A DNA stretch of 21,608 nucleotides from a virus, in IMG/VR virus record IMGVR_UViG_3300017776_000242, positions 1 to 21,608 of that record; one strand, 5' to 3'. The translations under genes and the position numbers were made by a program. Shown here one piece after another: positions 491 to 21,596 of this stretch. Position 1 is the first letter of the stretch. Each line of letters opens with the position of its first letter. The notes under the pieces are model-generated. The model made no database searches and was not told where the DNA came from. It worked only from the letters and a program-made list of their open reading frames with translations.

Positions 491-3001
491 ATGAAATTTT
501 ATACCTCAGTATCTCGCTACGGCAATAACCTTCTTTATAGAGGTTATGCTAATGGCAAAAAAATTCAAACAAAAATTAAATACCAACCAACCTATTATGT
601 TAATACAACTAAGGACACTGGTTATCGAGCCTTAGATGGCACAAAGGTTGCGCCTATCAAATTTTCTGATATGCGTGACGCAAAAGAATGGCTTTCAGCA
701 AATCAACATACTGCTGGTCGTCATATCTATGGAAACAATAAACACATTCCCGCTTATATCAATGAAGCATTTCCAGGGAATATCAAATTTGATCGTAATC
801 TTATTAATGTAACTACAATCGATATTGAGGTTCAGTCTGATGCTGGATTTCCAGAGCCTGAAGAAGCGGCTCATGAAGTTACAGCAATATGTATCAAAAA
901 CAATATTGACAAAACTTTTTATGTCTGGGGTCTTAAAGACTATGATGTAGAAAACAGCTACATGCAAGAAAGTCGTGTGGTATATGAAAAATGTTTAACC
1001 GAATCTGAACTTCTACTTAAATTTATCGCGCACTGGGCTTTACCTTCTCATTGTCCAGATGTTATTACTGGTTGGAATTCACGATTCTTTGATATGCCAT
1101 ATCTTATTAATCGTATTATCAAAATTCATGGCGAAGAGTTTGTACGTAGGTTATCACCATGGGGTTTAATTGATCGACGCGACGTTACAACAATGCAACG
1201 CAAACAATGTGCATATGAAATTCAAGGTATTGCCCAAATGGATTACCTTGATCTATTTCGTAAATTTGGTTACTCTTATGGTCCACAAGAATCATATAAG
1301 CTAGATCATATTGCGCATGTTGTTCTTGGTGAACGTAAGCTCTCATATGAAGAACACGGTAACCTACATACTTTATACAAATATGACCATCAAAAATTTA
1401 TTGATTATAATATCAAAGATGTGGATCTTGTAGATCGCTTTGAGGATAAGATGGGTCTTATTACTCTTGCTCTTACTATGGCTTATCGTGGTGGTGTTAA
1501 CTATGGCGATGTTATGGGTACAACTGCAATATGGGATTCTATTATTTTCCGTAATCTCTTTGCTAACAATGTAATTGTTCCCTTTGGCGAAGAAAAGTTT
1601 AAATCACCATATCCTGGTGGTTATGTAAAAGATCCACATGTTGGAATTCATGAATGGGTTGTTTCTTTTGACTTAAACTCGCTGTATCCATCAATCATTA
1701 TGCAGAATAATATGTCACCTGAAACTATTATTAATGGTAAAGTTGCTAATGTTTCGGTTGATACACTTCTTAGTGGCGAGGTAAAACCTAGGCTTGAATC
1801 TAACGAATGCGCTGCAGCTTCAGGCCAATATTTTAAAACTGACACTCAAGGTATTCTTCCAAAAATTATCGATGAAATGTATAGTGAACGCGTTGTCATA
1901 AAAAGACAAATGATTAATTCTCAGCGTGAGCTCGAAAAGGTTGATAAAAAAGATAAGCAAGAATTATATCGAGTCCAAAGGGATATTAACATTGCTGAAA
2001 ACCAGCAAATGTCGATTAAGATTCTTCTAAACAGTCTTTATGGCGCCCTAGGTAACAAGTATTTCAGATTCTTCGATCAACGTATTGCTGAGGGTATTAC
2101 TTTATCTGGCCAATTAACAATTCGTTGGGCTGAAAAGGCAATCAATGAATATCTTAACAAAGTCCTTAAAAGCAATAAAGATTATGTAGTTGCTATTGAT
2201 ACCGATTCTGTTTATGTAGTTCTCGATGATCTTGTTAAAGCTGTCAATCCTAAAAATCCACTTGAATTTGTAAACACTGTCTGCAACGAAAAGCTTGAAA
2301 AAGTCCTTGAAGACAGTTATAACACTTTATTCGAAACCATGGGTGGTATTGAAAATCGAATGGTTATGAAACGTGAAGCTATTGCTAATCGTGGTATATG
2401 GACAGCTAAGAAAAGATATATTCTCAATGTTCTTGATAATGAAGGTGTTCGTTATGCTGAACCTAAACTTAAGATCATGGGTATTGAAGCTATAAAATCT
2501 TCAACTCCAGCTCCATGTCGTGAAGCGTTAAAACAAATGTTTAAAACTATTATTAGTGGTTCAGAATCTGCAGTTCAAAAAGATATTGAATTATTCAGAT
2601 CACATTTTAAAACACTTTCCCCCGATCAAATTGCCTTTCCACGTGGTATAACTAATCTTACAAACTATATGGATAATCAAACCATATACAAAAAAGGTAC
2701 ACCAATTCATGCACGTGGCAGTATTATGTACAATAAACTTCTTGTTGACAAATCACTTCAAAGGCAATATAACAAAATTCAAAATGGTGAAAAGATCAAA
2801 TTCATATATCTTCGAATACCAAACCACATAAAGGAAAATGTTATATCTTTCCTTGATTACCTTCCGGAAGAGTTTGGTTTACATCGATATATTGATTACG
2901 ATACTCAATTTAATAAAACGTTTTTGGATGTAATTGATCCAATACTTTCAGCTATCGGTTGGAACTCTAAGGATGTTGCAACTCTTGATGAATTTTTTTA
3001 A
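491..3001 (+). CDS. 43: Family B replicative DNA polymerase, T4 gp43-like
   Basis: The 836-residue protein is the phage replicase with 3'-5' proofreading. Exonuclease motifs are visible: Exo I D111-x-E113, Exo II around D201 (NSRFFDMPY) and Exo III Y306-x3-D310, lining up with T4 D112/E114, D219 and D324. Polymerase motifs follow: motif A SFDLNSLYPS (D394), motif B KILLNSLYGALGN (510-522), motif C D570-T-D572, then KKRY. It is slightly shorter than T4 gp43 (898 aa). The C-terminus TLDEFF sits where T4/RB69 polymerase carries its gp45 clamp-binding peptide. No Shine-Dalgarno sequence is seen upstream of the ATG, unlike nearly every other gene here. T4 gene 43 is autoregulated at translation, so regulated initiation is possible but not shown. 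The next gene starts after its own promoter. Confidence 0.97.
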   Translation: MKFYTSVSRYGNNLLYRGYANGKKIQTKIKYQPTYYVNTTKDTGYRALDGTKVAPIKFSDMRDAKEWLSANQHTAGRHIYGNNKHIPAYINEAFPGNIKFDRNLINVTTIDIEVQSDAGFPEPEEAAHEVTAICIKNNIDKTFYVWGLKDYDVENSYMQESRVVYEKCLTESELLLKFIAHWALPSHCPDVITGWNSRFFDMPYLINRIIKIHGEEFVRRLSPWGLIDRRDVTTMQRKQCAYEIQGIAQMDYLDLFRKFGYSYGPQESYKLDHIAHVVLGERKLSYEEHGNLHTLYKYDHQKFIDYNIKDVDLVDRFEDKMGLITLALTMAYRGGVNYGDVMGTTAIWDSIIFRNLFANNVIVPFGEEKFKSPYPGGYVKDPHVGIHEWVVSFDLNSLYPSIIMQNNMSPETIINGKVANVSVDTLLSGEVKPRLESNECAAASGQYFKTDTQGILPKIIDEMYSERVVIKRQMINSQRELEKVDKKDKQELYRVQRDINIAENQQMSIKILLNSLYGALGNKYFRFFDQRIAEGITLSGQLTIRWAEKAINEYLNKVLKSNKDYVVAIDTDSVYVVLDDLVKAVNPKNPLEFVNTVCNEKLEKVLEDSYNTLFETMGGIENRMVMKREAIANRGIWTAKKRYILNVLDNEGVRYAEPKLKIMGIEAIKSSTPAPCREALKQMFKTIISGSESAVQKDIELFRSHFKTLSPDQIAFPRGITNLTNYMDNQTIYKKGTPIHARGSIMYNKLLVDKSLQRQYNKIQNGEKIKFIYLRIPNHIKENVISFLDYLPEEFGLHRYIDYDTQFNKTFLDVIDPILSAIGWNSKDVATLDEFF

Positions 3002-5847: not shown

Positions 5848-6156
5848 ATGGCTAAATTTGACGAAAACAAAACACCACTTGGCTTAATACCACCAGAAGC
5901 ATTAGCTCAAATTGCTGATGTCTTTGGCTTTGGTGCTGAAAAGTATGGTGTAAACAATTGGCGTTATGATGGCGACTCAACCAGCTGGATTCGAACATAT
6001 TCATCTGTTCAGCGACATCTTAATGCATGGCATTCTAGTATTGACAATGACGATGAATCTGGTATGACTCATCTTGCGCATGCAGCGACTCAAATCATGA
6101 TTCTCATGACACATGCTATTGAACATCCAGAAGTCGATGATAGGTACAAAAAATGA
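5848..6156 (+). CDS. dATP/dGTP diphosphohydrolase N-terminal-like protein
   Basis: The 102-residue protein matches a phage family that I recall as the dATP/dGTP diphosphohydrolase N-terminal domain: KTPLGLIPPEALAQIADVFGFGAEKYGVNNWR (8-39), then RHLNAWHSS...DDESGMTHLAHAATQI (56-83). The E/H/D residues in the second block probably bind metal. The family is helical and MazG-like, converting a dNTP to dNMP and pyrophosphate. Here it directly precedes, and overlaps by four bases (ATGA), the dCMP hydroxymethylase gene, so a dNTP-pool role such as supplying dCMP from dCTP is attractive but unproven. AAAGGA lies ahead of the ATG. This is the second candidate pyrophosphatase in the window. Confidence 0.8.
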   Translation: MAKFDENKTPLGLIPPEALAQIADVFGFGAEKYGVNNWRYDGDSTSWIRTYSSVQRHLNAWHSSIDNDDESGMTHLAHAATQIMILMTHAIEHPEVDDRYKK

Positions 6157-6803
6157 AAATAAGTGATATAAGAAATCATTTTCGTAATGAATTATTAAAT
6201 AAAAATTTTACAACTGATCGTAATGGCAGTAAAACTATTGAATTGCTTGGTGCATCTTTCCATGCTACTGAACCAGCAATCTTTGGTAAACCAAACCAAG
6301 AATATATTGATGCTGAAATATCATGGTATGAGTCTCAATCAACAAACATTAACGATATTTACGTTGATAGAGATCCACCTAAAGCTTGGCAAATGACAGC
6401 AAATCGTCATGGTGAAATTAATTCTAATTATGGTCATCTCATCTGGAGTGAACAATATCATAATCAGTTTAATTCAGTTGTTAATGAACTAAGAACCAAA
6501 CCTGACTCGCGTAGAGCATCGATGATTTATACTCGTCCAAGTATATGGGTCGAATATAATGATCAAAACAAAAATGATTTTATTTGTACTAATTCGGTGA
6601 CATACTATATTCGAGATGATGAATTACATTGTGTAGTACAAATGAGATCAAACGATGTTATATTTGGCTATCGTAATGATTATGCATGGCAAGAATATGT
6701 TCTTTGCGCATTGGCTGATGAACTTGGCGTTAATGATGGTGATATGTACTGGCAAGTACAGAATTTACATGTCTATGAAAGACATTTTGATTTGGTGAAA
6801 TAA
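6153..6803 (+). CDS. 42: Deoxycytidylate (dCMP) hydroxymethylase, T4 gp42-like
   Basis: A thymidylate-synthase-fold enzyme that makes 5-hydroxymethyl-dCMP from dCMP and methylenetetrahydrofolate. It closely follows T4 gp42: EIxWYxSxS near 55-63, GEINSNYGHLIWSE (87-100), PDSRRASMIYTRPS (117-130), NDFICTNSVTY (141-151) with catalytic Cys145, and VVQMRSNDVIFGYRNDYAWQ (161-180). Cys145 and Asp176 are both offset by three from T4 Cys148 and Asp179. That Asp replaces the Asn of thymidylate synthases and selects cytosine over uracil, so the enzyme should act on dCMP. At 216 residues it is about 30 shorter than T4 gp42, ending at LHVYERHFDLV. It overlaps both neighbours, which are also nucleotide enzymes. 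It implies 5hmC in the phage DNA. Confidence 0.93.
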   Translation: MKISDIRNHFRNELLNKNFTTDRNGSKTIELLGASFHATEPAIFGKPNQEYIDAEISWYESQSTNINDIYVDRDPPKAWQMTANRHGEINSNYGHLIWSEQYHNQFNSVVNELRTKPDSRRASMIYTRPSIWVEYNDQNKNDFICTNSVTYYIRDDELHCVVQMRSNDVIFGYRNDYAWQEYVLCALADELGVNDGDMYWQVQNLHVYERHFDLVK

Positions 6804-7267: not shown

Positions 7268-7562
7268 AAAAGACAGGTTTGACTTAGAGCAAGCGATCAT
7301 GAATGCATGGGCAACATCTGAAGATCTAGATCTCGTATATCATAATACAGATAACTTAATTTTAAATCCTAAAGATTGTGATACATTACAAAATCAAATG
7401 CTTGGATTAAAATATATATTTGAATTACGAATGGAAAAAGTTTGGAGCATCTTTGAAGAGATGATCAAAACCGAACAATTTAAAGAACACGATGCGCTTA
7501 CGGCTGATACTAGCTGGAAAGCTTTTGACGACTGGAAGAAACAACAGGATCCAGCTCAATAA
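7254..7562 (+). CDS. Conserved T4-like phage protein of unknown function
   Basis: 102 residues from ATG 7254, chosen because AGGA (7243-7246) sits seven bases upstream; an in-frame TTG at 7233 has no site. The sequence is mostly helical and acidic: DLEQAIMNAWATSEDLDLVY, then a middle helix (NQMLGLKYIFELRMEKVWSIFEEMI). I recognise this pattern from many T4-like marine phages, where it is an unnamed protein near replication or nucleotide genes. No catalytic motif is seen. It overlaps the end of the deaminase gene by 14 bases and is followed within ten bases by the tRNA. Confidence 0.75.
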   Translation: MTSFKKDRFDLEQAIMNAWATSEDLDLVYHNTDNLILNPKDCDTLQNQMLGLKYIFELRMEKVWSIFEEMIKTEQFKEHDALTADTSWKAFDDWKKQQDPAQ

Positions 7563-7568
7563 GAATTT

Positions 7569-7645
<77 letters not shown>

Positions 7646-7659
7646 AATAAAGAGTTGAA

Positions 7660-7803
7660 ATGAAACGTACAAATGGTATATGGTTATTAAGAGGAATACT
7701 ACTAATATGGCTAGCATTTTCCATCAAAAATACCGACGATTTATATGGAGTAAGATATAGTATGAGAATAATTAATGAATGTAAAATCGTAAAAGGAGAA
7801 TGA
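7660..7803 (+). CDS. 47-residue predicted membrane peptide
   Basis: A short ORF immediately after the tRNA. It has a basic start (MKRTNG) and a hydrophobic stretch IWLLRGILLIWLAFSI, followed by a polar, mixed-charge end. One membrane segment is likely, positive side in. The upstream site is weak (AAAGAG), so expression is uncertain. Its last codons carry the AAAGGAGA ribosome site of the next gene, and its TGA stop ends two bases before that gene's ATG. No family is recognised. Confidence 0.5.
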   Translation: MKRTNGIWLLRGILLIWLAFSIKNTDDLYGVRYSMRIINECKIVKGE

Positions 7804-7804
7804 T

Positions 7805-7990
7805 ATGTTATATAGCGGATATATGTTTGAAATTAATCAATGTGGATTAATTATGTCGGACAAAGATGGAGATATGATCCAATTAAAAAATACACCATTA
7901 GAAATTGGAGATTCATTTACTCTACAACTAACACAAGATGGTCGTTTATTTTTTAAACGTACGGATATAAGAGAAGAACTAGATGAGTAA
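7805..7990 (+). CDS. Hypothetical 61-residue protein
   Basis: Starts at ATG 7805 with a strong AAAGGAGA site. The predicted protein is short-strand rich (YMFEINQCGLIMSDKDGDMI, FTLQLTQDGRLFFKR), suggesting a small beta-sheet fold, and ends in an acidic tail. I do not recognise the family. Its end overlaps the next gene by eight bases, consistent with coupled translation. Confidence 0.65.
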   Translation: MLYSGYMFEINQCGLIMSDKDGDMIQLKNTPLEIGDSFTLQLTQDGRLFFKRTDIREELDE

Positions 7991-8165
7991 CTGGCATGGT
8001 GGCAAAGGTAGTAAACAAAGACCTACCGACAACAAAAAATACCAAGATAACTGGGATGATATTTTCGGTAAAAAAGATAAACCAAGCGCAGTAGATGATT
8101 GCGCCACAACCAAGGAAGAAAGTGCAGCTAATGAAATTAAAAAAAGAAATCAAAAGAATGACTAA
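7983..8165 (+). CDS. Small conserved phage protein with N-terminal WHGGKGSKQRP motif
   Basis: A 60-residue, highly charged protein opening with MSNWHGGKGSKQRPTDNKKY, then DNWDDIFGK. This GGKGxxxRP...WDxIFG pattern is one I recall from short unnamed proteins in many tailed phages. It has no membrane segment and the rest looks disordered. Function is unknown. It overlaps the previous gene by eight bases and the next one by eight, or more if the next gene starts further upstream. Confidence 0.65.
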   Translation: MSNWHGGKGSKQRPTDNKKYQDNWDDIFGKKDKPSAVDDCATTKEESAANEIKKRNQKND

Positions 8166-8412
8166 AGAGTTTACAACCCCTAAATATACAATCGATTGGT
8201 ATGTTAAATGGGCAGCTTCTGTAATTGTTCTTTGCGCAATGTCTATTAGAGGCATTGATGGACTACAAATGTGGGATCTTGTTCTATCAGCAATCGGTAT
8301 CGCATTGTGGTTATGGGTTTCTATCTTATGGAAAGATAGAGCTTTAATACTACTTAACGGGGTTGGATTAATGTTTTTGTTTAAAAATATTATGACTTCC
8401 CTTTACATTTAG
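8158..8412 (+). CDS. Predicted small inner-membrane protein
   Basis: From ATG 8158 the protein is 84 residues. In-frame ATGs at 8131 and 8095 would give 93 or 105 residues; the shorter form is preferred because it begins near the stop of the upstream gene, but no start has a convincing ribosome site. There are two or three hydrophobic segments: YVKWAASVIVLCAMSI, MWDLVLSAIGIALWLWVSIL and ALILLNGVGLMFLF. The central piece (DLVLSAIGIALWLWV...WKDRALI) resembles small membrane proteins of T4-like marine phages. The -35 box of the ino1 promoter lies in its last codons. Function is unknown. Confidence 0.6.
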   Translation: MTKEFTTPKYTIDWYVKWAASVIVLCAMSIRGIDGLQMWDLVLSAIGIALWLWVSILWKDRALILLNGVGLMFLFKNIMTSLYI

Positions 8413-8430
8413 TGAAAAATGTATTATAAT
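8402..8430 (+). promoter_or_regulatory. Sigma70-type promoter for the inositol/modification operon
   Basis: TTTACA (8402-8407), 17-bp spacer, TATAAT (8425-8430), then ATACATTATAACTATTA. Unlike the other strong copies it lacks TGn directly before the -10. AATGTA (8418-8423) and TACATT (8432-8437) form inverted arms around the -10, a possible operator. It is the only promoter seen before the five genes 8524-13411. Confidence 0.75.
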
Positions 8431-8461
8431 ATACATTATAACTATTAATATGATTAACAAA

Positions 8462-8495
8462 AGTGAGCTACTCTGATCCAGTCAAATGTCTCACT
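8462..8495 (+). other. Leader hairpin upstream of ino1
   Basis: AGTGAG (8462-8467) can pair with CTCACT (8490-8495) around a 22-base loop that itself holds a short ACT/AGT pairing. It falls in the roughly 85-base untranslated leader between promoter and ino1, 24 bases before the AAAGGAG site. It could be a regulatory or stabilising structure; chance pairing cannot be excluded. Confidence 0.3.
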
Positions 8496-8523
8496 ATAAT
8501 AAACTGATATAAAGGAGAAAATT

Positions 8524-9804
8524 ATGTCAAAAATAAATATCGCCATCGCGGGCGTAGGTAATTGTTCATCGGCACTTGTGCAAGGCGTTCAATATTATAT
8601 AGAAAAACCAGAAGATAAAATTGGCCTGATGTTTGAAGACATTGGTGGCTATTCAGCTGAGAATTTTAACTTCGTCGTTGGATTTGACGTTGATTCACGT
8701 AAAGTTGGTCAACGGTTAAATAAAGCAATTTATGCTAAACCAAATTGTAACATGGAAGTATTTCCTCCAGGTCACGATATGAGCTGTATTGCTAATGAGT
8801 CTACAGTATTCAGATCTCCAACTATGGACGGGATTGCTCCTCATATGAATGAGCTTGATGAAAATGTTACATTCCTAGAGGACAATAAAACCACACCAAT
8901 TACAGCATCTGAATATAGAAAAATTCTTAAAGATCGCAAAGTTGATGTATTACTTAATTATATGCCAGTAGGAGCTGAAGAAGCTGCAGCATGGCACATT
9001 GAAAATGCTATTAAGGCTGGTGTTCATGTTGTAAACTGTATGCCAACTTATATTTCTACAAAAGATGCTATGGAATTAGAGCAATTGGCTATTGACAATG
9101 GTGTAACAATTGTTGGCTCTGATATGAGATCTGATTATGGCGCATCACGTTTATCTGAAGTTCTTCAAGGATCTATTATGGATTCTGGCCTTTTGGTTAC
9201 ACAACACATTCAAGAAAATAAAGCTTGTGGTACAACCCAAGGTGATATGCGTAGGATTGGTAGAACAGCAAATACTGATTTCTTAAATATGGCAACAAAA
9301 GATCGTTTGAAAAATAAGCATATTTCAAAAGAGAATGTACTTAATGGCCAAGCTACAGTTCGTGGTAAAGATATCGCAGGACTTACAATGTATGCTGGTC
9401 CATCACTTACAGTTTTCCAAAAGCCAGGTGGTGAATATATTGGATCTGATAATAAAATTGCAAATATCGATATGGTATTTTGGGGTTGGGCTGGCGCTCG
9501 TTATGAGCTAACCGCTCGTTTATCAGTTCAGGATTCTCCAAATAGTGCTGGTATCGTGTATGATGCTATTAGATTCTGTAAAGTTGCTTCTGAAATGGGA
9601 ATTGTTGGTTACTTACGTGGACCATCAGCTTGGTCACAAAAGACTCCACCTGAGCAGCTTAAAACTGCAGATGCTAAATTTGAATGTGATGCATTGGCTC
9701 GTAGAGTTTTAACTGATAAAACAACTCCTCAACTTAAAGAAAATAATCCTAAAGTTGAAGATCTAACTTATACATTCCAATCAGGTGAAAACGATTATGC
9801 CTAA
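8524..9804 (+). CDS. ino1: myo-Inositol-1-phosphate synthase (Ino1)
   Basis: The 426-residue enzyme would convert glucose 6-phosphate to myo-inositol phosphate using NAD as a recycled cofactor. It is close to the bacterial/archaeal Ino1 type: INIAIAGVGNCSSALVQGV (Rossmann NAD site, 4-22), VVGFDVDSRKVG, VDVLLNYMPVGAEEA, INCMP-like VVNCMPTYIST, GSDMRSDYGAS, DFLNMATKDRLKNKHISK and the hallmark QDSPNSAGIVYDAI. It ends like actinobacterial Ino1 at PSAW...KTPPEQL, but with about 35 further residues and extra internal inserts. All expected blocks are present, so it is probably active. AAAGGAG precedes the ATG. Very unusual in a phage; it heads an operon with a HAD phosphatase and predicted DNA-modification proteins. 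Confidence 0.93.
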   Translation: MSKINIAIAGVGNCSSALVQGVQYYIEKPEDKIGLMFEDIGGYSAENFNFVVGFDVDSRKVGQRLNKAIYAKPNCNMEVFPPGHDMSCIANESTVFRSPTMDGIAPHMNELDENVTFLEDNKTTPITASEYRKILKDRKVDVLLNYMPVGAEEAAAWHIENAIKAGVHVVNCMPTYISTKDAMELEQLAIDNGVTIVGSDMRSDYGASRLSEVLQGSIMDSGLLVTQHIQENKACGTTQGDMRRIGRTANTDFLNMATKDRLKNKHISKENVLNGQATVRGKDIAGLTMYAGPSLTVFQKPGGEYIGSDNKIANIDMVFWGWAGARYELTARLSVQDSPNSAGIVYDAIRFCKVASEMGIVGYLRGPSAWSQKTPPEQLKTADAKFECDALARRVLTDKTTPQLKENNPKVEDLTYTFQSGENDYA

Positions 9805-10174
9805 GCAATTAATTAATACATTTGATATTGATGGAGTAATTTATTTCGGCGAGGACGTAACTGGTGTGCGTCCTGGCCGTGATGATGTTATTATTACCGG
9901 AAGGTCGTATCAACAAGAGCTTGATACCATTGTTATGCTAAAATCTCGTGATATACATAATCATGTAATGTTTAATCCTTTAAAGCGAAGTGATGATGCT
10001 TATAGCAGAAAAGCTTCAGGTATTCATAAAGCTAAATGTATCACAAAGCTTAAAGAATCATTTAAGATTGGACTACACTTTGAGGACGATCCTATTCAAA
10101 TTGAAGAAATTAAAAAGGTTCATCCAGAATTAAATATAATCCACTTAGTCAGAGAGGGTCTCATTGGCTACTAA
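9797..10174 (+). CDS. Small HAD-superfamily phosphatase-like protein
   Basis: 125 residues from ATG 9797, which has AGGTG upstream; an in-frame GTG at 9785 would add four residues. HAD motifs in order: FDIDGVI (nucleophile Asp10 and general acid Asp12), TGRS (34-37), Lys78/Lys80, and HFEDDP (95-99). There is no cap domain and no membrane segment. HAD enzymes use a phospho-aspartate to remove phosphate from small substrates. Its gene overlaps ino1 by eight bases, so inositol phosphate is an obvious candidate substrate, but a nucleotidase or polynucleotide phosphatase is equally possible from sequence. It overlaps the next gene by 11 bases. Confidence 0.8.
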   Translation: MPKQLINTFDIDGVIYFGEDVTGVRPGRDDVIITGRSYQQELDTIVMLKSRDIHNHVMFNPLKRSDDAYSRKASGIHKAKCITKLKESFKIGLHFEDDPIQIEEIKKVHPELNIIHLVREGLIGY

Positions 10175-11228
10175 TTCTTATAATTATGATTGGTGGTCAT
10201 TTGATAAAGACCTTATGCTTGACTTCAATCATTTCTTAAAAAAGATTAACGATCGTGCAGCTATTCATCAAGGTTTTACTAATGATCAATATGAAAATCT
10301 AAATCGTCATGGTGTAATTGACCATGGCTTAGGTGAGAACGTTGAATATTTTCATCCTACGATTACCTTAGATGATCGTATGAGATTTATTGGTACTGAA
10401 ATTGCTACATCTCGAATGAGCGATACTAATATTGTTGGTAACACGATTATATCTCACTTTTATGGGGCTCGTGGAGTTCACTGGATAGTATCAGGAAAGG
10501 AAGGAACCTTTGTTGATTTTGATCGAATTGCAGATGGCGATGATGACTATATTAAGTTTCTACGTAATAACATCGATAAAGCTATAAGAAATAAACAACC
10601 TATCTGGGGAACGACTGAGTTACACACATCGATTCAAACTGCTGGTAGAAACTATTGTCGTAAAAAATATAATGATCCAGATCGTAAGTTTCATCCAGTT
10701 GACGTAAGTGAATGGGTTGCTTCTTTCAGAGATACTAAAATCATTGAAGGTATGCTAGCTGCTAAAGATCTTTTTGAAGTGTTTACTTTATTAAGAACTT
10801 TACCAGGAGTTGGTGAATATTATGGATTCCATTGTGCAACTTCAACATCTGTTTTACCTCAAATGAAATATCATCATGATCAAAGGTTTGTTGCGCCAGG
10901 ACCAGGAGCAGTTTATACGATAAAATTACTTTGGCCAGATGTTCCTAATAAATATCTAGCTGAAGCAATTTATTTTATAAGAGAAAACGCAGCTGAAATT
11001 GGTTTGACTAAGGATGTTACGTTCCATGAATCAGCATATAATATTGAATTAGACAATGGTTCACATTTATTTAAAGAACAACAGAATGGATTAAAGTACT
11101 ACGGTACTGAGGTTCTATGTTGCCAGTATGGTGTATATCTACAAATAAGAGATGACGAAAAGGCCTGTGGAAGACGTCAAGTTGCTAGAGCTAAGACGCC
11201 TCAAAACACATTAACTGAGTTTTTTTAA
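10164..11228 (+). CDS. Alpha-glutamyl/putrescinyl thymine pyrophosphorylase-like DNA-modification protein
   Basis: 354 residues if TTG 10164 is the start, supported by AGAGAGGG (10150-10157) six bases upstream; the next ATG is at 10215. The central block has the helix-hairpin-helix signature LRTLPGVGEYYGFHCATST (LPGVG), then a D-Q-R-F-V-A-P-G-P-G-A stretch. This order (LPGVG, Asp, PGPGA) is what I recall for the DNA-glycosylase-like aGPT-pyrophosphorylase families proposed to attach groups to hydroxymethylated pyrimidines in phage DNA. The family's PWT N-terminal motif is not seen, so this is a divergent member. The tail TLTEFF resembles the polymerase's clamp peptide. A glycosylase with another role is the main alternative. 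Confidence 0.6.
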   Translation: MATNSYNYDWWSFDKDLMLDFNHFLKKINDRAAIHQGFTNDQYENLNRHGVIDHGLGENVEYFHPTITLDDRMRFIGTEIATSRMSDTNIVGNTIISHFYGARGVHWIVSGKEGTFVDFDRIADGDDDYIKFLRNNIDKAIRNKQPIWGTTELHTSIQTAGRNYCRKKYNDPDRKFHPVDVSEWVASFRDTKIIEGMLAAKDLFEVFTLLRTLPGVGEYYGFHCATSTSVLPQMKYHHDQRFVAPGPGAVYTIKLLWPDVPNKYLAEAIYFIRENAAEIGLTKDVTFHESAYNIELDNGSHLFKEQQNGLKYYGTEVLCCQYGVYLQIRDDEKACGRRQVARAKTPQNTLTEFF

Positions 11229-11229
11229 G

Positions 11230-12219
11230 ATGAAAAATATAATCAACTGCCCATTTATTCCAATAGCAAAACGTCATGCATCTCACCGAGGAGCTCAAGG
11301 CGTTATCTATGGAGATATGATTAAGGAAAAATATGGAAACTGCGATGTCAACTATGGTGGAGAAATTACAGATCATAATGCTTATGATAATCTCTGGGTT
11401 TATCATGGCAGTGATTATAGCGGCGGTCTTAATATGTTTGGTGGCGTTTATGGTTTCCCATACGTTGCTAACACTGTTAACTTTTCTAAATTTAAAGGTC
11501 AAGTCTATTCTATAGGTATGGATTTTCCTCCATATCATGAAATGATTAAAAGTAAATTAGATGCTGCTAAACGAGACGTTCAGCCTGAATGGCATCAGGT
11601 TGACTTAAAAAATCTTAAAAGAATGCATGACACAGCAATTAGAGTTGATTATCCTAATCCAACAGATAAAGTTATTATTGGTGATAGTCATTCAATATGT
11701 ATGTATCGTCCAGGTTGGACTGTTAATAGCGTTCCATTTAAAACCTTAAATGGCGCATTGAAACAAGGATTCAAAACATTTATTCCGCCAACAGGATATA
11801 AAGAACTTCATTGTTATTTTGGTAACATTGATGTGCGTCATCATATTATTAGATTAGAAGCAAGTATTATTGATTTGGCTGATAGATACATGGAAGAAGC
11901 TAGTAAATTTGACGCTAAGATATATGAACTATTGCCAATTGAACATGAATCAAGAAAGATCCCACAATCTGGATATCATAAAGGTAAACCATTCTGGGGT
12001 TCATGGCATGAAAGAACAGATATTCGTAATCAATTTAACGATTACATTGAAAAGGAATACGGCATCATAAGATGGACCGATAAATTAATGAATAAGGCTG
12101 GTGAGCTTGATTTTAAATATATGGAAAAGCCAAAATCAATTCATCTGTCAAGAGAGTTTTATCCATATTGGAATGGAATCGAAACTAAAATAACAAATAC
12201 ACTTGAGGAATTTTTCTAA
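11230..12219 (+). CDS. SGNH/GDSL-like domain protein in DNA-modification operon
   Basis: A 329-residue protein. The C-terminal two thirds carries SGNH-hydrolase blocks: IGDSHS (catalytic Ser), NGALKQG (Gly), YFGNIDVRHHI (Asn/Asp, similar to GEIDxRxH forms), and KSIHLSREFYPYW (His) near the end. The N-terminal ~110 residues (HASHRGAQGVIYGDMIKEKYG, then YDNLWVYHGSDYSGGLNMFGG) may be a separate domain and faintly recall the N-terminal half of phage beta-glucosyltransferases; this is weak. The family cleaves or transfers acyl groups, often on sugars. It ends in TLEEFF. It starts two bases after the previous stop with no clear ribosome site, so coupled translation is likely. The target is unknown. 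Confidence 0.6.
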   Translation: MKNIINCPFIPIAKRHASHRGAQGVIYGDMIKEKYGNCDVNYGGEITDHNAYDNLWVYHGSDYSGGLNMFGGVYGFPYVANTVNFSKFKGQVYSIGMDFPPYHEMIKSKLDAAKRDVQPEWHQVDLKNLKRMHDTAIRVDYPNPTDKVIIGDSHSICMYRPGWTVNSVPFKTLNGALKQGFKTFIPPTGYKELHCYFGNIDVRHHIIRLEASIIDLADRYMEEASKFDAKIYELLPIEHESRKIPQSGYHKGKPFWGSWHERTDIRNQFNDYIEKEYGIIRWTDKLMNKAGELDFKYMEKPKSIHLSREFYPYWNGIETKITNTLEEFF

Positions 12220-12220
12220 T

Positions 12221-13411
12221 ATGACTACATGGGCAAGCATTGTACCATTGATTGGTGGTGAGACCATCGCAATGGAAAACGTTTTTAAAACTAAACCAAA
12301 ATATTTTTTAACATTTGATGGATTTCAAGCAAATGAAGAACATTTGAGAAACTATTACAATAATGAGATTCCATATTTGAATTTGTCAAATGGTGATAAG
12401 CATACTGAAAGCGTTGATGTTGTAAATACAGTATGTCCATGTGCTGGTCTAAGTTCTTTAAGTCCTTCTGCTTCAAGCAATAATCCAGCAAATGATTGGA
12501 TGATTAAATCAGCAGAATATGTTTTAAGTGAAATGTCGCCAAAGGTATTTTGGGGAGAAAACGCTCCAAGACTAGCATCAAAAATGGGTGAACCAGTTGT
12601 AAGAAGATTACGTAAAATTGCTGAAGACAATGGTTATACATTTAGTATTTTTAAAACAAAATCTTTATTACATGGATTGAGTCAAGTTAGAGATCGAACA
12701 TTTTATTTCTTTTGGAAAGACAATACTGTTCCATTATTTGACTATATTGAAGTTCCACCAACAATGATTGCAGATGATATTAGATCTGTAGTGAATGACC
12801 CATCTGATGAAATGAGTCAAATTTTATGTAATGATAAAACTCCATCAGAAGATCCATATTATAAGTATATCTTAGAAGAACTCGAAGGTGGAATTACCCA
12901 CAAAGAGTTTGCAGCTAAGATTGAAAAGACCACAAATGTTCAAGATTATATTGAAGAACATACAACCTATAACAAGGTTGCTGAGTGGATGCGAGCAAAT
13001 GGATACGATAATGTAGCTCGTAAATGCGATAGAGCTTATCACAAGCTCAAAGCAGGTGGTAATATTATGCGTAAAGGCGTTGAAATTCCAAAGGATAAAA
13101 TTGGAGCTTTCGTAGGTCATATGCCAACAAGCATAACACATCCAGACGAAGATAGATTTTTAACAGTAAGAGAATCTATGTCTTTGATGAAATTGCCAAA
13201 TGACTATAAATTAGTGAATCCTAAAAGATCACTAAATCATATATGTCAAAATGTACCTGTAACCACAGCCGAACATCCAGCAGCTATGGTTAAAAAGTAT
13301 CTTGAGGGAAAACTTGATTCAATAGATACTGATTATATGGTACAAGATAATAAGAAAAAAACCTATGAATTTGTAAAAAACAGTTTACAATTGACTGAAT
13401 TTATGATATAA
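12221..13411 (+). CDS. DNA (cytosine-5) methyltransferase
   Basis: 396 residues from ATG 12221, one base after the previous stop, with GAGGA (12205-12209) upstream. Motif order is that of C5 methyltransferases: ASIVPLIGGETIAMENV (motif I-like), TFDGFQANEEH (II), VNTVCPCAGLSSLSP (IV, catalytic Cys74), WGENAPRL (VI, ENA at 113-115), LHGLSQVRDRTFYFFW (VIII), a target-recognition region around 170-300, TVRESMSLMKLPNDY (IX, 315-329) and ICQNVPVTTA (X, 341-350). Motif IV reads CPCAGLS instead of PPCQGFS, a divergence at the active loop. It should methylate cytosine in a short site. A C5 enzyme is unexpected in a phage making hydroxymethylcytosine, where most sites would be blocked. The last 11 codons and the stop lie in the next promoter. 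Confidence 0.88.
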   Translation: MTTWASIVPLIGGETIAMENVFKTKPKYFLTFDGFQANEEHLRNYYNNEIPYLNLSNGDKHTESVDVVNTVCPCAGLSSLSPSASSNNPANDWMIKSAEYVLSEMSPKVFWGENAPRLASKMGEPVVRRLRKIAEDNGYTFSIFKTKSLLHGLSQVRDRTFYFFWKDNTVPLFDYIEVPPTMIADDIRSVVNDPSDEMSQILCNDKTPSEDPYYKYILEELEGGITHKEFAAKIEKTTNVQDYIEEHTTYNKVAEWMRANGYDNVARKCDRAYHKLKAGGNIMRKGVEIPKDKIGAFVGHMPTSITHPDEDRFLTVRESMSLMKLPNDYKLVNPKRSLNHICQNVPVTTAEHPAAMVKKYLEGKLDSIDTDYMVQDNKKKTYEFVKNSLQLTEFMI

Positions 13412-13412
13412 T
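13384..13412 (+). promoter_or_regulatory. Sigma70-type promoter for the bS21-uvsX-gp41 unit, embedded in a CDS end
   Basis: TTTACA (13384-13389), 17-bp spacer, TATAAT (13407-13412), extended -10 TGa, followed by ATACAATATATTA. The TAA inside the -10 is the stop codon of the methyltransferase gene. The bS21 gene starts 34 bases after the -10. Confidence 0.85.
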
Positions 13413-13445
13413 ATACAATATATTAACCATTAAAAAAGAGGAATT

Positions 13446-13718
13446 ATGCCTAGTATTAATTTAAAAGCACAGCCCGCTAAATACCGTAAAGGTAAGAAAA
13501 ACCAGCGGCCACCACAAGACATGCCATTCGATGTTGCTTTGAGAAAGTTCAAAAAAGCAGTTGAAGCGGCAGGTATTCTACAAGATGTACGTAGAAAAGA
13601 ATATTATGAAAAACCTACTGCCAAGCGCAAACGTAAAAAAGCCGAAGCTATCGCGCGTCATAAAAGGCAGGTTGATTCTATTCAACAAACACAATTCGGC
13701 AGGAGAAAAGTACGATGA
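13446..13718 (+). CDS. rpsU: Ribosomal protein bS21 homologue
   Basis: 90 residues; from about 27 on it reads as bS21: [49 protein letters not shown], with the F-x-x-A-L-R-x-F-K/R-x-x-V-E-x-A-G-I and EKP-x-x-KRKRKK signatures. Bacterial bS21 is about 70 residues; this one has an extra basic N-terminal region of around 25 residues. bS21 sits on the 30S platform near the anti-Shine-Dalgarno end and helps initiation. Phage copies are known and are proposed to join host ribosomes. Heading the recombination/replication unit and overlapping uvsX (ATGA) is notable. GAGGA precedes the ATG. Confidence 0.93.
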
Positions 13719-14782
13719 GTATAATGGATAAACTAAAAAAGAACTCAAAGATTAAAACTTCGGATACACTATCTGAAAGTATTTTCTTTGGTGATAAGAC
13801 CATGGTCAAGACAGAAGTTCCAATGATCAATGTTGCTCTCTCAGGAGATCCAGACGGTGGATTAACTTCTGGTTTGACAGTATTGGCTGGTCCATCTAAA
13901 CACTTTAAAACATCATTTGCATTATTGATGGCTGCGTCTTATATGAAAGAACATAGTGATGCAGTAATGCTATTTTATGATTCAGAGTTTGGTTCACCAC
14001 AATCATATTTTGAAGCATTCGGTATTGACACTAGTCGAGTACTTCATACGCCAATTACTGATGTTGAACAACTTAAATTTGATCTAGTTGGTCAATTGGA
14101 TAATATTGAGCGTAAAGATAAAGTAATTATTGTTATTGATTCAATTGGTAACCTTGCTTCTAAGAAAGAACTTGAAGATGCTTTAAATGAAAAATCAGTT
14201 GCTGATATGTCAAGAGCAAAAGCACTTAAAGGTCTATTCCGTATGGTAACACCTTACTTGACTATGAAAGATGTGCCTCTATTGGCTATTAATCATACGT
14301 ATCAAGAAATGGGTCTATTCCCTAAAGCTGTAGTTTCCGGTGGTACTGGTATTTACTATTCAGCTGATAATATCTGGATTCTAGGTCGTAGACAAAACAA
14401 GCAAGGTATGGAAGTTACAGGATATGACTTTATTATTAATGTAGAAAAATCCAGAATGGTAAAAGAGAAATCTAAGATTCCAGTATCGGTCTCATGGGAC
14501 GGCGGTGTAGAACGCAATAGTGGTTTACTTGATATTGCTTTAGCTGGTGGATTTGTAGTTAAACCAAGTAATGGTTGGTACTGCATGGTTGATCAAGATA
14601 CCGGTGAAATGGTTGAACCTAAAGTAAGAGAAAAGCAAACTAGAACTGATGAGTTCTGGGAACCAATTCTCAATACTGATAAGTTTAAAAACTTCTTAAT
14701 TAATCAATACCAAATAGGCCATAAATCTTTAATTGATTTTGACCCAGAAAGTCCTTTACAAAACAATGAAAATGTGGTATAA
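13715..14782 (+). CDS. uvsX: UvsX, RecA-like recombinase
   Basis: 355 residues, closely following T4 UvsX: Walker [10 protein letters not shown] (59-67), FYDSEFG (88-93, catalytic Glu region), Walker [18 protein letters not shown] (136-152), [18 protein letters not shown] and INHTYQEMG plus the L2-like [13 protein letters not shown]. It forms the presynaptic filament on single-stranded DNA for strand exchange and recombination-dependent replication. AGGAG at 13701-13705 precedes the ATG. The tail PLQNNENVV and its TAA lie within a promoter-like sequence (14755-14783). It is downstream of bS21 and upstream of a small protein and gp41, as usual in T4-like phages for uvsX and 41. Confidence 0.95.
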
Positions 14783-18990: not shown

Positions 18991-20355
18991 ATGAAAAGTT
19001 TTTTAATACATCAAGAAATAAAGGAAGCTGTTAAGCTAGCTCCTGGTCAACTTAAAAAGCCAAATGCCAACACAGGCGAAGCGAGAACAGATATTCTTGC
19101 TAGGCTTATCAGAGATGGAGTACCACTAGAATTAGCAAAAGGTGGTACTTTTAAAGTAACTGAAGTCGAAGATGCTTTAAAGCAAATTGAAATATTTAAA
19201 AAACTTGGTAAAGCATTTAATCTTCATGGCGATGGTAAAACTATTAGCTCCTCTGACTTAGGCAAAAGTAAAGTTTTTGGTGGAGGAAGCGGCGCTGGAG
19301 GTGGTACCGAAAATACCAAAATTACTGAATCTCATCAATGTGTTATATGCCAAGCAATGTTAGATAATGGCATTCAAGAAGAAGAATACTTTGAGTCAGA
19401 AGAAATACTCAAACCTGCATTTAAAAAAGTATTTGTTGATGCTTCATTTGATGAAATTATGAGTGTTGAAGGCACATGGTTTCATTCATCTTATGAATCA
19501 GCAAAAGCACTGATCAAACAAGGTTATATCAATAAGTCACAAACATTCCATAGAAATAGTAAATTGATGAATACTGTATATGCTTTAAAAAATGTAGCAT
19601 ATAAAAATTCAAAACAAAAGCCAGTAAAAGATGATAAATGGAACCCTGGAGATTTCTGGGCAGTTGAAAAATCATTTAACATTAAAGCTTTGGACACAAG
19701 TTCAATTCAAGCATATAATAAAGCATTACTTCAAGCATTTGCTGATAGACAACTAGTTGGTATATCACTTAAGCTTGTTAAGAAAAAGCCTAAAATTGCA
19801 GTTCTTAATGCTAAATTACCACCTGATACTGATGATCATAAGATTCTTAAAATACTACTTCAAGGTGAAAAGCGTGGTACTTTTTGGAGTAACAAAGGAG
19901 CAACTATCTTATTTGACGATGGTAAATTCGATTTAAGAGCTGGTAGTCTTGGTGGTGCGATTAAAGGAGAAATTGCTCTTAAAACAGCAAGAGGTGGCGG
20001 TGCTGGATATGGTATTATGCAAGACGCTCTTCAATCAACTTTAAGAAAGAAAATACCAGACAATGGCAAAATCAATCAAATGGCTAAAAAAATACTTAAA
20101 GGCGACAAAAAGTCTATTTCTGTATTTCATAAAATGTATAGCCATTTTTATAAGAACGATTCATATGAGAACTTTGAAAAAGAATTATCAGCAAAGGATG
20201 TATATTGGATCGGATCAAAACTAGCTTGTTTATATGTCGTTTATGTTGTTGATATTCACATGGGAACACGAGCTAATAGATGGATAACTAAAATTATTAA
20301 TTATGCTGGGTCTAAATCAGAAGACTCAAGTGTTTATGTAAAGGTATACGAATAA
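18991..20355 (+). CDS. Late protein with PD-(D/E)XK-like motif, unknown function
   Basis: 454 residues behind a late promoter. Features in order: a helical N-terminal region (10-75), a glycine-rich linker (GGGSGAGGG, 97-105), HQCVICQAML with Cys-x-x-Cys (117-120), then WNPGDFWAV (217-225) and LVGISLKLVKK (255-265). The D...S-L-K arrangement resembles a PD-(D/E)XK-like core, and I recall this WNPxDxW...GISLKK pattern in unnamed proteins of several myophages. The C-terminal part has ARGGGAGYGIM and a helical end. Function is not known. The ATG has AGGAG but 15 bases away, an unusually long spacing. It joins the next gene by TAATG. Confidence 0.6.
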   Translation: MKSFLIHQEIKEAVKLAPGQLKKPNANTGEARTDILARLIRDGVPLELAKGGTFKVTEVEDALKQIEIFKKLGKAFNLHGDGKTISSSDLGKSKVFGGGSGAGGGTENTKITESHQCVICQAMLDNGIQEEEYFESEEILKPAFKKVFVDASFDEIMSVEGTWFHSSYESAKALIKQGYINKSQTFHRNSKLMNTVYALKNVAYKNSKQKPVKDDKWNPGDFWAVEKSFNIKALDTSSIQAYNKALLQAFADRQLVGISLKLVKKKPKIAVLNAKLPPDTDDHKILKILLQGEKRGTFWSNKGATILFDDGKFDLRAGSLGGAIKGEIALKTARGGGAGYGIMQDALQSTLRKKIPDNGKINQMAKKILKGDKKSISVFHKMYSHFYKNDSYENFEKELSAKDVYWIGSKLACLYVVYVVDIHMGTRANRWITKIINYAGSKSEDSSVYVKVYE

Positions 20356-21596
20356 TGAAAGGATTTAAAAATCAACTAGCTGAAGCCGCAGGAAAGAACA
20401 CTCATATGATTCATATTGAGGATCTTATTCTTGATGGCGGAGTTAAGGGAGCGCGCCAAGCTATACTTGCATTGAGATCATTGCGAGATATGCTGTCGGG
20501 TAACGCAAAATCTGCAGTAGACGTTACTGTTAAATGGGATGGCGCTCCCGCCGTATTTGCCGGAGAAGATCCGTCAGATGGCCAATTCTTTGTAGCAAAA
20601 AAAGGTATCTTTAATGCTAATCCAAAGATTTATAAGTCTCATGCTGATATTGATGCTGATACAAGTGGAGATCTATCTAAAAAATTAAAAATGGCATACG
20701 ATTATCTTAAGCCTTTAGGAATTAAAGGTGTTATACAAGGTGACTTTATGTTTGATAAGTCAGACCTTAAAAAGGAGAAGATAAATGGAATTAGTCATAT
20801 TGTGTTTCATCCTAACACTATCGCTTATGCAGTACCTACTGGTAGTTCTCTCGCTAAGACGATTGGATCAGCTAAGATCGGAATTGTTTGGCATACTACA
20901 TACTCTGGAGCAACGTTCGAAACGATGAAAGCTGAGTTTGGCAGAGAAATTGTTACTAAACTTAAACCATCTAAGGATGTGTGGATGCAAGATGCGACCC
21001 TTGATGATCTATCAGGTACAGCAACTTTAACAAAAAGCGAAACTGATGAGCTAAATAAAAAATTATCAGATGCAGGCAAATTATTTAGAAAAATATCTGG
21101 ATCTACTCTTAAAGAGCTAGAATCAAATAAAGAATTAAATCTTGTTATTAATGTATATAACAATAGAAAAGTAAGAAATGGCCAAAGAATCACAGACACT
21201 AAGAAGCATGCAACTGGTCTTATTATGTTTGTCCAAGATCGATACCAAAAAGAAATTGACAAGAGAAGCAGTCAAGCTGGTAAAGATAAGCAAATTGCAA
21301 AAAGGGATCAATTACTTGCGTTTTTTGACAAATCTAATTTAAAAAACTTACAAAATGTGTTTGATTTGCAAAATTTAGTTGTAGATAGCAAATTAATTAT
21401 TATAAATAAACTAAACAGTTTAAATAAAATTGGTACTTTTGTTAAAACTAAGTCCGGATTTAAAGTAACCAACCCTGAAGGTTTTGTTGCTATAGATCGT
21501 ATGGAAGGTGGAGCTGTTAAACTTGTTGATAGACTAGAATTTTCTACTAACAACTTTAGCAAAGACATTATTAAAGGTTGGGATAATCCTAACTAA
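20355..21596 (+). CDS. Predicted nucleotidyltransferase (ligase-like) phage protein with KWDG motif
   Basis: 413 residues. VTVKWDGAPAVFAG (58-70) matches motif I (KxDG) of the covalent nucleotidyltransferase superfamily (DNA/RNA ligases, capping enzymes), with Lys60 as the expected AMP/GMP acceptor. FFVAKKGIFN (78-87), GVIQGDFMF (125-133; E/Q-G-D as in motif III) and KIGIVWHTTYSG (174-184) could be later motifs. I recall this HxEDLIL...KWDGAP family as an unnamed conserved protein (DUF6267-like) in many T4-like phages. The C-terminal 200 residues are helical and lysine-rich. It is probably an RNA/DNA ligase-like enzyme or a degenerate relative. It overlaps the 454-residue gene, so the two probably work together. 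Confidence 0.7.
   Translation: MKGFKNQLAEAAGKNTHMIHIEDLILDGGVKGARQAILALRSLRDMLSGNAKSAVDVTVKWDGAPAVFAGEDPSDGQFFVAKKGIFNANPKIYKSHADIDADTSGDLSKKLKMAYDYLKPLGIKGVIQGDFMFDKSDLKKEKINGISHIVFHPNTIAYAVPTGSSLAKTIGSAKIGIVWHTTYSGATFETMKAEFGREIVTKLKPSKDVWMQDATLDDLSGTATLTKSETDELNKKLSDAGKLFRKISGSTLKELESNKELNLVINVYNNRKVRNGQRITDTKKHATGLIMFVQDRYQKEIDKRSSQAGKDKQIAKRDQLLAFFDKSNLKNLQNVFDLQNLVVDSKLIIINKLNSLNKIGTFVKTKSGFKVTNPEGFVAIDRMEGGAVKLVDRLEFSTNNFSKDIIKGWDNPN

Follow-up and report, generated by a model that had tools for sequence, protein, structure and literature searches.

Why would a T4-like phage carry an enzyme of inositol synthesis? The question is raised by a 21.6-kb virus fragment (IMG/VR record IMGVR_UViG_3300017776_000242; the whole 21,608 nucleotides (nt) analysed are called the window below), in which an open reading frame (ORF) at 8524-9804 encodes a relative of myo-inositol-phosphate synthase (MIPS). 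Considering the genes that travel with it, those that it appears to replace and the C-terminal tails of the encoded proteins, we conclude that MIPS probably provides the precursor step of a DNA-decoration cassette, in which inositol would be put on 5-hydroxymethylcytosine (hmC). The narrower statement, that myo-inositol (or its O-methylated or glycosylated form) is attached to cytosine through the 5-hydroxymethyl group, we regard as evenly balanced; the substituted forms are considered because FkbM methyltransferase or glycosyltransferase genes occur in some cassettes.

Identity and active site of the phage MIPS

The ORF at 8524-9804 is open over 426 aa, begins with ATG and is preceded by a ribosome-site-like stretch, AAAGGAG. 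Our comparisons confirmed it as a MIPS relative and predicted enzyme. The Ino1 identity proposed in the initial annotation was supported by Pfam (Inos-1-P_synth, 31.6 bits against a cut-off of 27, E 2e-7), by NCBIfam (mycothiol_INO1, E 1.2e-57, 195.8 bits) and by its top solved relative, inositol-3-phosphate synthase 1gr0 (E 1.5e-47, residues 3-385); the second-best solved relative is 6k96, a five-membered-cyclitol-phosphate synthase. The score of 195.8 bits falls short of the 638 bits that define the mycothiol-type Ino1 equivalog (TIGR03450), and the protein also matched PHROG 33138 (E 7e-107), which has no assigned function. The QDSPNSAG block, previously described as intact, is indeed so at residues 336-343. 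At 426 aa the protein is also longer than an Ino1 of about 360 residues, as had been remarked (the 1gr0 chain has 367), and a stretch of 17-18 residues in place of 3 explains part of the difference.

Loss of the catalytic lysines had been named as the observation that would count against this identity. We looked for it by sequence alignment in place of a structural one, and the lysines are kept: K265, K269, K311 and K373 do not vary among 15 aligned rows. Across 160 phage MIPS rows (89 distinct sequences, several per contig, the window included twice), K265, K269, K311, D309, D337, N250 and D252 are kept in 160/160 and K373 in 159, the remaining row having a gap. In 79 rows from a genome collection, one of which (L255) is actually a phage contig, K265, K269, K311, K373, D309, N250 and D252 are kept throughout and D337 in 78. 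We take these lysines and aspartates to be the catalytic ones. Phage MIPS as such is already known, since relatives at 38-42% identity occur in 18 named phage records (16 Stenotrophomonas and two Caulobacter Cr30), most of them already annotated as inositol-phosphate synthase. Scanning IMG/VR with the MIPS query gave 57 closer loci, at 57-100% identity.

A cassette beside a T4-type hydroxymethylase

The features of the window on which the argument draws are these (all on the + strand).

491-3001 (+), family-B DNA polymerase, left border of the region; Pfam DNA_pol_B 1.1e-32; tail VATLDEFF at 2975-2998
6153-6803 (+), dCMP 5-hydroxymethylase of T4 gp42 type; 1b49, E 2.4e-67, 230 bits
6803-7267 (+), dCMP deaminase; PHROG 174, 5.5e-45
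8402-8430 (+), sigma-70-like promoter match TTTACA-17-TATAAT ahead of the cassette; 11/12, joint best in 7500-14000
8524-9804 (+), predicted MIPS; Pfam, NCBIfam, PDB comparison, lysine alignment
9220-9270 (+), clade-specific loop; MIPS residues 233-249, 17 aa just ahead of NTDF
9785-10174 (+), HAD-type phosphatase overlapping MIPS, candidate inositol-phosphate phosphatase; PHROG 415, 2.6e-6
10164-11228 (+), transferase-like protein; Pfam HMUDK_hel, 36.1 bits against a cut-off of 25; tail NTLTEFF at 11205-11225
11230-12219 (+), SGNH/GDSL-fold protein; fold 2hsj; tail NTLEEFF at 12196-12216
12203-13411 (+), C5-cytosine-methyltransferase-like protein; Pfam DNA_methylase 5.5e-15; tail LTEFMI at 13391-13408
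13715-14782 (+), UvsX recombinase, right border of the region; PHROG 97, 2.6e-84

The genes for MIPS, HAD, the transferase-like protein, SGNH and the methyltransferase-like protein lie on one strand and overlap or abut, as an operon of which MIPS is the first gene. MIPS is flanked by a family-B polymerase, UvsX, a DnaB-like helicase and a T4 gp42-type hydroxymethylase, in agreement with the earlier description of the genome as T4-like. The hydroxymethylase assignment rests on strong homology, with thymidylate synthases scoring at most 58.6 bits against 230 for T4 1b49. Its D176, which we take to be the dCMP-specificity residue Asp179 of T4, is D in 14/14 aligned relatives, and the same place is N in two solved T4 variants. 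The hydroxymethylase profile matched all eight long MIPS contigs (8/8). The cassette and the hydroxymethylase both sit between DNA polymerase and UvsX; in Tevenvirinae this is where most hmC-modification genes are located, according to one report (PMC8056088).

We asked how tightly these genes travel together by seeding IMG/VR searches with three cassette proteins and keeping loci with 5 kb upstream. Among the best 80 of 338 loci found with the transferase-like protein, 40 qualified, and MIPS, HAD and hydroxymethylase were present in 40/40. Among the best 80 of at least 596 SGNH loci, 42 qualified; MIPS and HAD were present in 35 and hydroxymethylase in 41, and the seven loci without MIPS were also without HAD and the transferase-like gene. 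With the methyltransferase-like protein (best 80 of at least 586 loci, 31 qualifying), MIPS and HAD were found in 16 and hydroxymethylase in 31/31, the 15 loci without MIPS lacking the transferase-like and SGNH genes as well.

Pooling all loci (180 with the transferase-like gene, 177 with MIPS, loci of one contig being counted more than once) gave the same picture. MIPS accompanies the transferase-like gene in 168/180, the other 12 comprising 11 loci cut within 1 kb upstream and Aeromonas phage 44RR. Conversely, the transferase-like gene is missing from 9/177 loci with MIPS: seven cut within 1.5 kb downstream, plus Stenotrophomonas phage Mendera and Cr30. HAD and MIPS are on the same strand in 172/172 loci that have both, with open frames at most 100 nt apart in 168. 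The HAD motifs DxDGV, ITGR, K82 and EDD are invariant in 20/20 sequences; the HAD profile had no match to PDB sequences up to E 0.1. Inositol monophosphatase (PF00459) was found in 0/11 phage records, eight of them contigs, with a control of 14/14.

Exchange with DNA-sugar genes

Loci that lack the cassette also bear on what it does. Pooling the loci of all seeds, MIPS among them, gave 73 distinct ones that have the methyltransferase-like gene and 6 kb of sequence upstream of it. The 54 with MIPS all contain HAD, the transferase-like gene and SGNH as well, and in none of them is there a member of the tested set of DNA alpha-glucosyltransferase (AGT), TAGT, UDP-galactopyranose mutase (GLF) and glycosyltransferase genes. 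The other 19 have no MIPS and also no HAD and no transferase-like gene; 13 carry the glycosyltransferase/GLF set only, four a set of pyridoxal-phosphate (PLP) enzymes only, and two both. Judged by eye, the swap-in genes mostly lie between the dCMP deaminase and methyltransferase-like genes, the same place as the MIPS set. Pfam matched eight of ten swap-in proteins from five loci, two giving nothing: the matches were AGT (1.4e-34 and 7.7e-30), TAGT (3.6e-19), GLF (1.8e-53), two epimerases, UDP-glucose dehydrogenase and a cytidylyltransferase-like protein.

An AGT or TAGT gene was found in 0/8 long MIPS contigs, which may be fragments, with known bearers detected alongside; neither appeared in Pfam scans of ten of the larger ORFs of the window, where no dedicated AGT/TAGT search was made. 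Other glycosyltransferases occur in 2/54 MIPS loci, L045 (GT4) and L046 (GT8), and a MIPS locus outside the 73 (L006, no methyltransferase-like gene in the stretch) has a TAGT-like gene below cut-off. FkbM methyltransferases are present in 7/54 MIPS loci and 0/19 MIPS-less ones.

Three hmC-type loci of about 5-10 kb (L186, L189 and L190) have SGNH and methyltransferase-like genes and no MIPS set. A family of about 400 aa without assigned function occurs in all three, another of about 355 aa in L186 and L189, and the product of one gene in L186 resembles PLP enzymes (Pfam 1e-5, below cut-off). These loci perhaps represent another decoration.

Clamp-type tails on the putative DNA-acting proteins

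The tail of T4-like DNA polymerases binds the sliding clamp. A similar C-terminal pattern, approximately (L/I)xx(F/L)(F/M/L/I/Y), was counted over unique C-termini. It is present in 36/37 polymerases, 54/63 transferase-like proteins, 65/73 SGNH proteins and 86/93 methyltransferase-like proteins, and is also found on swap-in glycosyltransferases. MIPS and HAD have it in 0/75 each, hydroxymethylase in 0/89, dCMP deaminase in 0/73, UvsX in 0/93, helicase in 0/61 and ThyX in 1/30. Unassigned genes carry it in 41/1246 cases, by eye 10 polymerase pieces, 21 of glycosyltransferase type, two from Mendera and eight apparently by chance. On these counts the small-molecule makers are without the tail and the putative DNA-acting proteins mostly have it. 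In a study of T4, alpha-glucosyltransferase co-purifies with the clamp gp45 and beta-glucosyltransferase does not; its authors nevertheless conclude that the larger alpha share is mainly due to something other than this interaction (PMC13216743). We infer that the C-terminal tail is a sliding-clamp tether.

The transferase-like, SGNH and methyltransferase-like proteins

The transferase-like protein was modelled (AF2 pLDDT 88.7), and the nearest fold is 8z2n, the 5-phosphomethyl-dU glycinyltransferase (PUGT) of phage PaMx11 (VIA Z 11.4, rmsd 3.6, 221 aligned), followed by a queuine-salvage enzyme (DUF2419, Z 9.8) and HhH glycosylases (Z at most 9.2). For a helical protein we regard such a match as suggestive but short of proof. 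The SGNH assignment is the firmer of the two: the model (AF2 pLDDT 83.5) resembles 2hsj (Z 11.8, 169 aligned, rmsd 3.8), and GDSH, GxxDxRxH and H305 are invariant in 18 rows, these being presumably the blocks of the catalytic Ser and His. NCBIfam gave no match for either protein. One locus (L042 5413-9258) has a 1281-aa ORF between the SGNH gene and uvsX.

In the methyltransferase-like protein, C80, ENAP and QxRxR are invariant in 10 rows, and the profile weakly matches HaeIII (1.2e-7) and HhaI (about 5e-7). Judged by eye only, S-adenosylmethionine motifs I and II appear changed, and the base-acting motifs are kept. The protein accompanies every hmC cassette type seen in IMG/VR loci; its profile matched 0/5 named phage records (Mendera, Cr30, 44RR, phage 25 and PTm1) in a search run without a positive control. 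The role of such a protein on hmC-containing DNA is puzzling. C5-methyltransferases act through a cysteine and, as a lead only, this one might activate hmC via its cysteine.

A clade-specific loop in the phage MIPS

The spacing between QxN and NTDF is 17-18 residues in 157/159 scored phage loci and three in the other two, Mendera and Cr30. In MIPS from the genome collection it is three residues in 76/79, two rows being unscored and one being L255. When 34 non-redundant phage rows and the 79 others were put into a quick tree, 32 phage rows grouped with L255 in a single clade (support 100, branch 0.99), outside which Mendera and Cr30 fell, on long branches of uncertain placement. L255 is binned as Planctomycetaceae TMED10 and its MIPS is 64% identical. 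It was ruled out as a bacterial donor and is a mis-binned phage contig, because it holds homologues of the phage cassette (hydroxymethylase, HAD, transferase-like, SGNH and methyltransferase-like) together with uvsX.

A proposed route to inositol on hmC and its alternatives

Glucose or arabinose on hmC is known from T4-like phages. In the route that we propose, the gp42-type hydroxymethylase would, by its strong homology, make hydroxymethyl-dCMP and so lead to hmC in DNA. MIPS, with its residues intact, would convert glucose 6-phosphate to inositol phosphate. HAD would then dephosphorylate the product, as its linkage to MIPS, its motifs and the missing PF00459 match in 11 phage records suggest. 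The transferase-like protein, held at the fork by its clamp-type tail, would couple inositol to hmC, as the swap, the tail and the fold suggest. SGNH and methyltransferase-like proteins may help or finish, SGNH perhaps as a general step since it also accompanies other cassettes. The MIPS cassette would thus take the place of the sugar cassettes of related phages (AGT, TAGT, GLF and the like).

Several of our observations weigh against this route. The 40 loci in which linkage is complete are mostly close kin, forming 17, 7 or 3 sequence clusters depending on the threshold. Mendera and Cr30 have MIPS without the transferase-like gene in the stretch examined. The SGNH gene also occurs without MIPS (7/42 loci) and near a UDP-galactopyranose mutase gene, and the methyltransferase-like gene goes with every cassette, so neither protein is inositol-specific. 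The loop ahead of NTDF could alter the substrate or product of MIPS, and the tail pattern was set after the sequences had been seen. Evidence on the transferase-like protein is mixed: the fold match to 8z2n is moderate (Foldseek probability 0.80, E 0.76), Z-scores of this size can, by the comparison program's own warning, arise between helical folds, and PDB sequences gave no match up to E 5. HHalign of its profile gave a probability of 0.3% against the single amino acid:DNA transferase (ADDT) sequence of Cr30, and nothing against two families of MIPS-less loci without assigned function, which hold only three and two sequences. Finally, the scheme assigns no enzyme to the activation of hmC.

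The alternatives closest to our reading keep the cassette and change the group. If the loop made MIPS yield another cyclitol, or use another hexose phosphate, hmC would be decorated with that product. The near-universal loop of the scored phage loci, seen in no scored genome-collection row except L255, and the 6k96 relationship give this some appeal, but the catalytic residues are kept and the best solved relative is an inositol-3-phosphate synthase, and we consider it possible though doubtful. The group might instead be attached as inositol phosphate, in a phosphodiester on hmC, with HAD serving another step. In its favour, the name of the enzyme nearest in fold to the transferase-like protein refers to a phosphomethyl base, a precedent for phosphorus chemistry here, and PF00459 is missing from the 11 phage records; HAD, however, keeps to the MIPS strand in every locus with both and has no clamp-type tail, as expected of a small-molecule phosphatase, which makes this version unlikely.

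Two further explanations would take MIPS out of DNA decoration or make it incidental to it. It might be a passenger, the cassette putting some other group on DNA, as the SGNH and methyltransferase-like genes occurring without it would allow. Against this, the only transferase-like genes without MIPS among the pooled loci are those on contigs cut less than 1 kb upstream and that of Aeromonas phage 44RR, whose group (19 records) has a sugar-type symporter beside the gene; we give the passenger explanation little probability. Ordinary auxiliary metabolism, with inositol serving as an osmolyte, host lipid head group or signal, or MIPS as a drain on glucose 6-phosphate, seems to us very improbable. 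MIPS alone could suffice for it, and the authors on phage Ps15 list MIPS as a bacteria-like gain by transfer (PMC9025141). Against it, MIPS is linked to DNA-decoration-type genes and swapped with DNA glycosyltransferases, and inspection by eye of the 11 ORF-listed loci, where no systematic search was made, turned up no gene for lipids or osmolytes. Of the uses listed in the initial annotation, gene context thus favours DNA decoration; the capsid, host lipid, osmolyte and glucose 6-phosphate uses were not individually searched, and the osmolyte, lipid and glucose-6-phosphate drain uses were set aside on that same context.

Inositol on hmC, our preferred reading, can be set beside several known systems. 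The phage enzyme shares catalytic lysines, aspartates and NAD-site glycines with cellular MIPS (Ino1; 1gr0), and differs in its 17-18-residue loop, its separate long-branch clade and its score far under the mycothiol Ino1 cut-off. The gp42-type hydroxymethylase, the polymerase-uvsX location and the clamp link recall hmC glucosylation and arabinosylation in T4 and RB69, whereas a cyclitol synthase replaces the sugar-nucleotide genes and the eight long MIPS contigs gave no AGT/TAGT match. Thymidine hypermodification, with its 5-hmdU kinase, amino acid:DNA transferases and PUGT, has in common with the cassette the HMUDK_hel domain and a predicted fold near 8z2n; here, however, the base should be hmC in view of the hydroxymethylase, no sequence kinship was found, and the nucleophile would be inositol rather than an amino acid. 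The MIPS genes of Stenotrophomonas Menderavirus and Caulobacter Cr30 have the same HAD family downstream, but no loop and, in the stretch examined, no transferase-like gene, and another base chemistry is likely there.

If correct, the proposal would mean a class of chemistry new to DNA bases: a cyclitol is not a sugar and has no anomeric carbon, and its attachment would call for different chemistry. It would offer a reason for phages as unlike as Menderavirus and Cr30 to keep MIPS, a new and possibly protective counter-defence coat, and a new route to DNA-modifying transferases; the clamp-type tail may mark other DNA-modifying enzymes not yet recognized in phage genomes. We found no report tying inositol to a phage DNA base in the open-access literature searched, as far as its accessible parts go. 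By calculation, hydroxymethyldeoxycytidine (hmdC, 257.10) plus C6H10O5 (162.05) gives 419.15, the same as glucosyl-hmdC (C16H25N3O10). Since inositol is an isomer of glucose, inosityl-hmC and glucosyl-hmC are inseparable by mass alone, which would call for caution in surveys that assign glucosyl-hmC in this way.

MIPS and related genes in other phages

Cr30 and Mendera show MIPS among different neighbours. In the Cr30 genome MIPS is preceded, at a distance of two genes, by one for an amino acid:DNA transferase (1.3e-52). Also upstream is a TAGT-like gene, below cut-off, with a tail that fits the clamp pattern; HAD follows MIPS after two small genes. In Mendera (L002 13365-16624) MIPS and HAD stand in a queuosine-type cluster. 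On one side of MIPS, beyond one small gene, is a GTP cyclohydrolase gene; on the other are HAD, QueC and a QueE-like gene. The cluster also encodes a 403-aa protein with no Pfam match and a clamp-like tail, NSLDDLFG. The hydroxymethylase profile found nothing in Mendera and a weak match (1.6e-6) in Cr30. Perhaps the Mendera cluster makes an inositol-carrying deazaguanine. For Ps15, a relative of Mendera, the published description places a queuine tRNA-ribosyltransferase there and classes MIPS among bacteria-like genes gained by transfer (PMC9025141).

In Aeromonas phage 44RR the SGNH and transferase-like parts are fused; hydroxymethylase is present and MIPS is not. Directly upstream of the fusion in 44RR2.8t (L061 6408-10388) is a vSGLT-type sodium symporter (2xq2, E 3.3e-103). 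A comparison of the record lists by eye showed that the 19 Aeromonas records with the transferase part are also those with a close symporter (81-100%); 13 other symporter-matching records have distant symporters only. Some records label the Aeromonas symporter a galactose transporter; it may bring in the group that other phages make for themselves. The SGNH part is found in 43 named phage records. In Aeromonas phage 25 (L062 5776-9047) UDP-galactopyranose mutase, a 358-aa protein without assigned function and the SGNH gene follow in a row, perhaps for galactofuranosyl-hmC.

Further features of the window

Besides the promoter-like match ahead of the cassette there is a second site with 11/12 matches at 13384-13412; such matches are no commoner than chance (32 found against 30.6 in shuffled sequence). 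Two large conserved phage genes without known function occupy 18991-21596 (PHROG 1462, 4.1e-37; DUF6267, 3.7e-103). The sole tRNA found in the window is a tRNA-Arg (TCT) at 7569-7645, and a ribosomal protein S21-like gene (PHROG 21469, 4.6e-19) lies at 13446-13718, between the cassette and uvsX.

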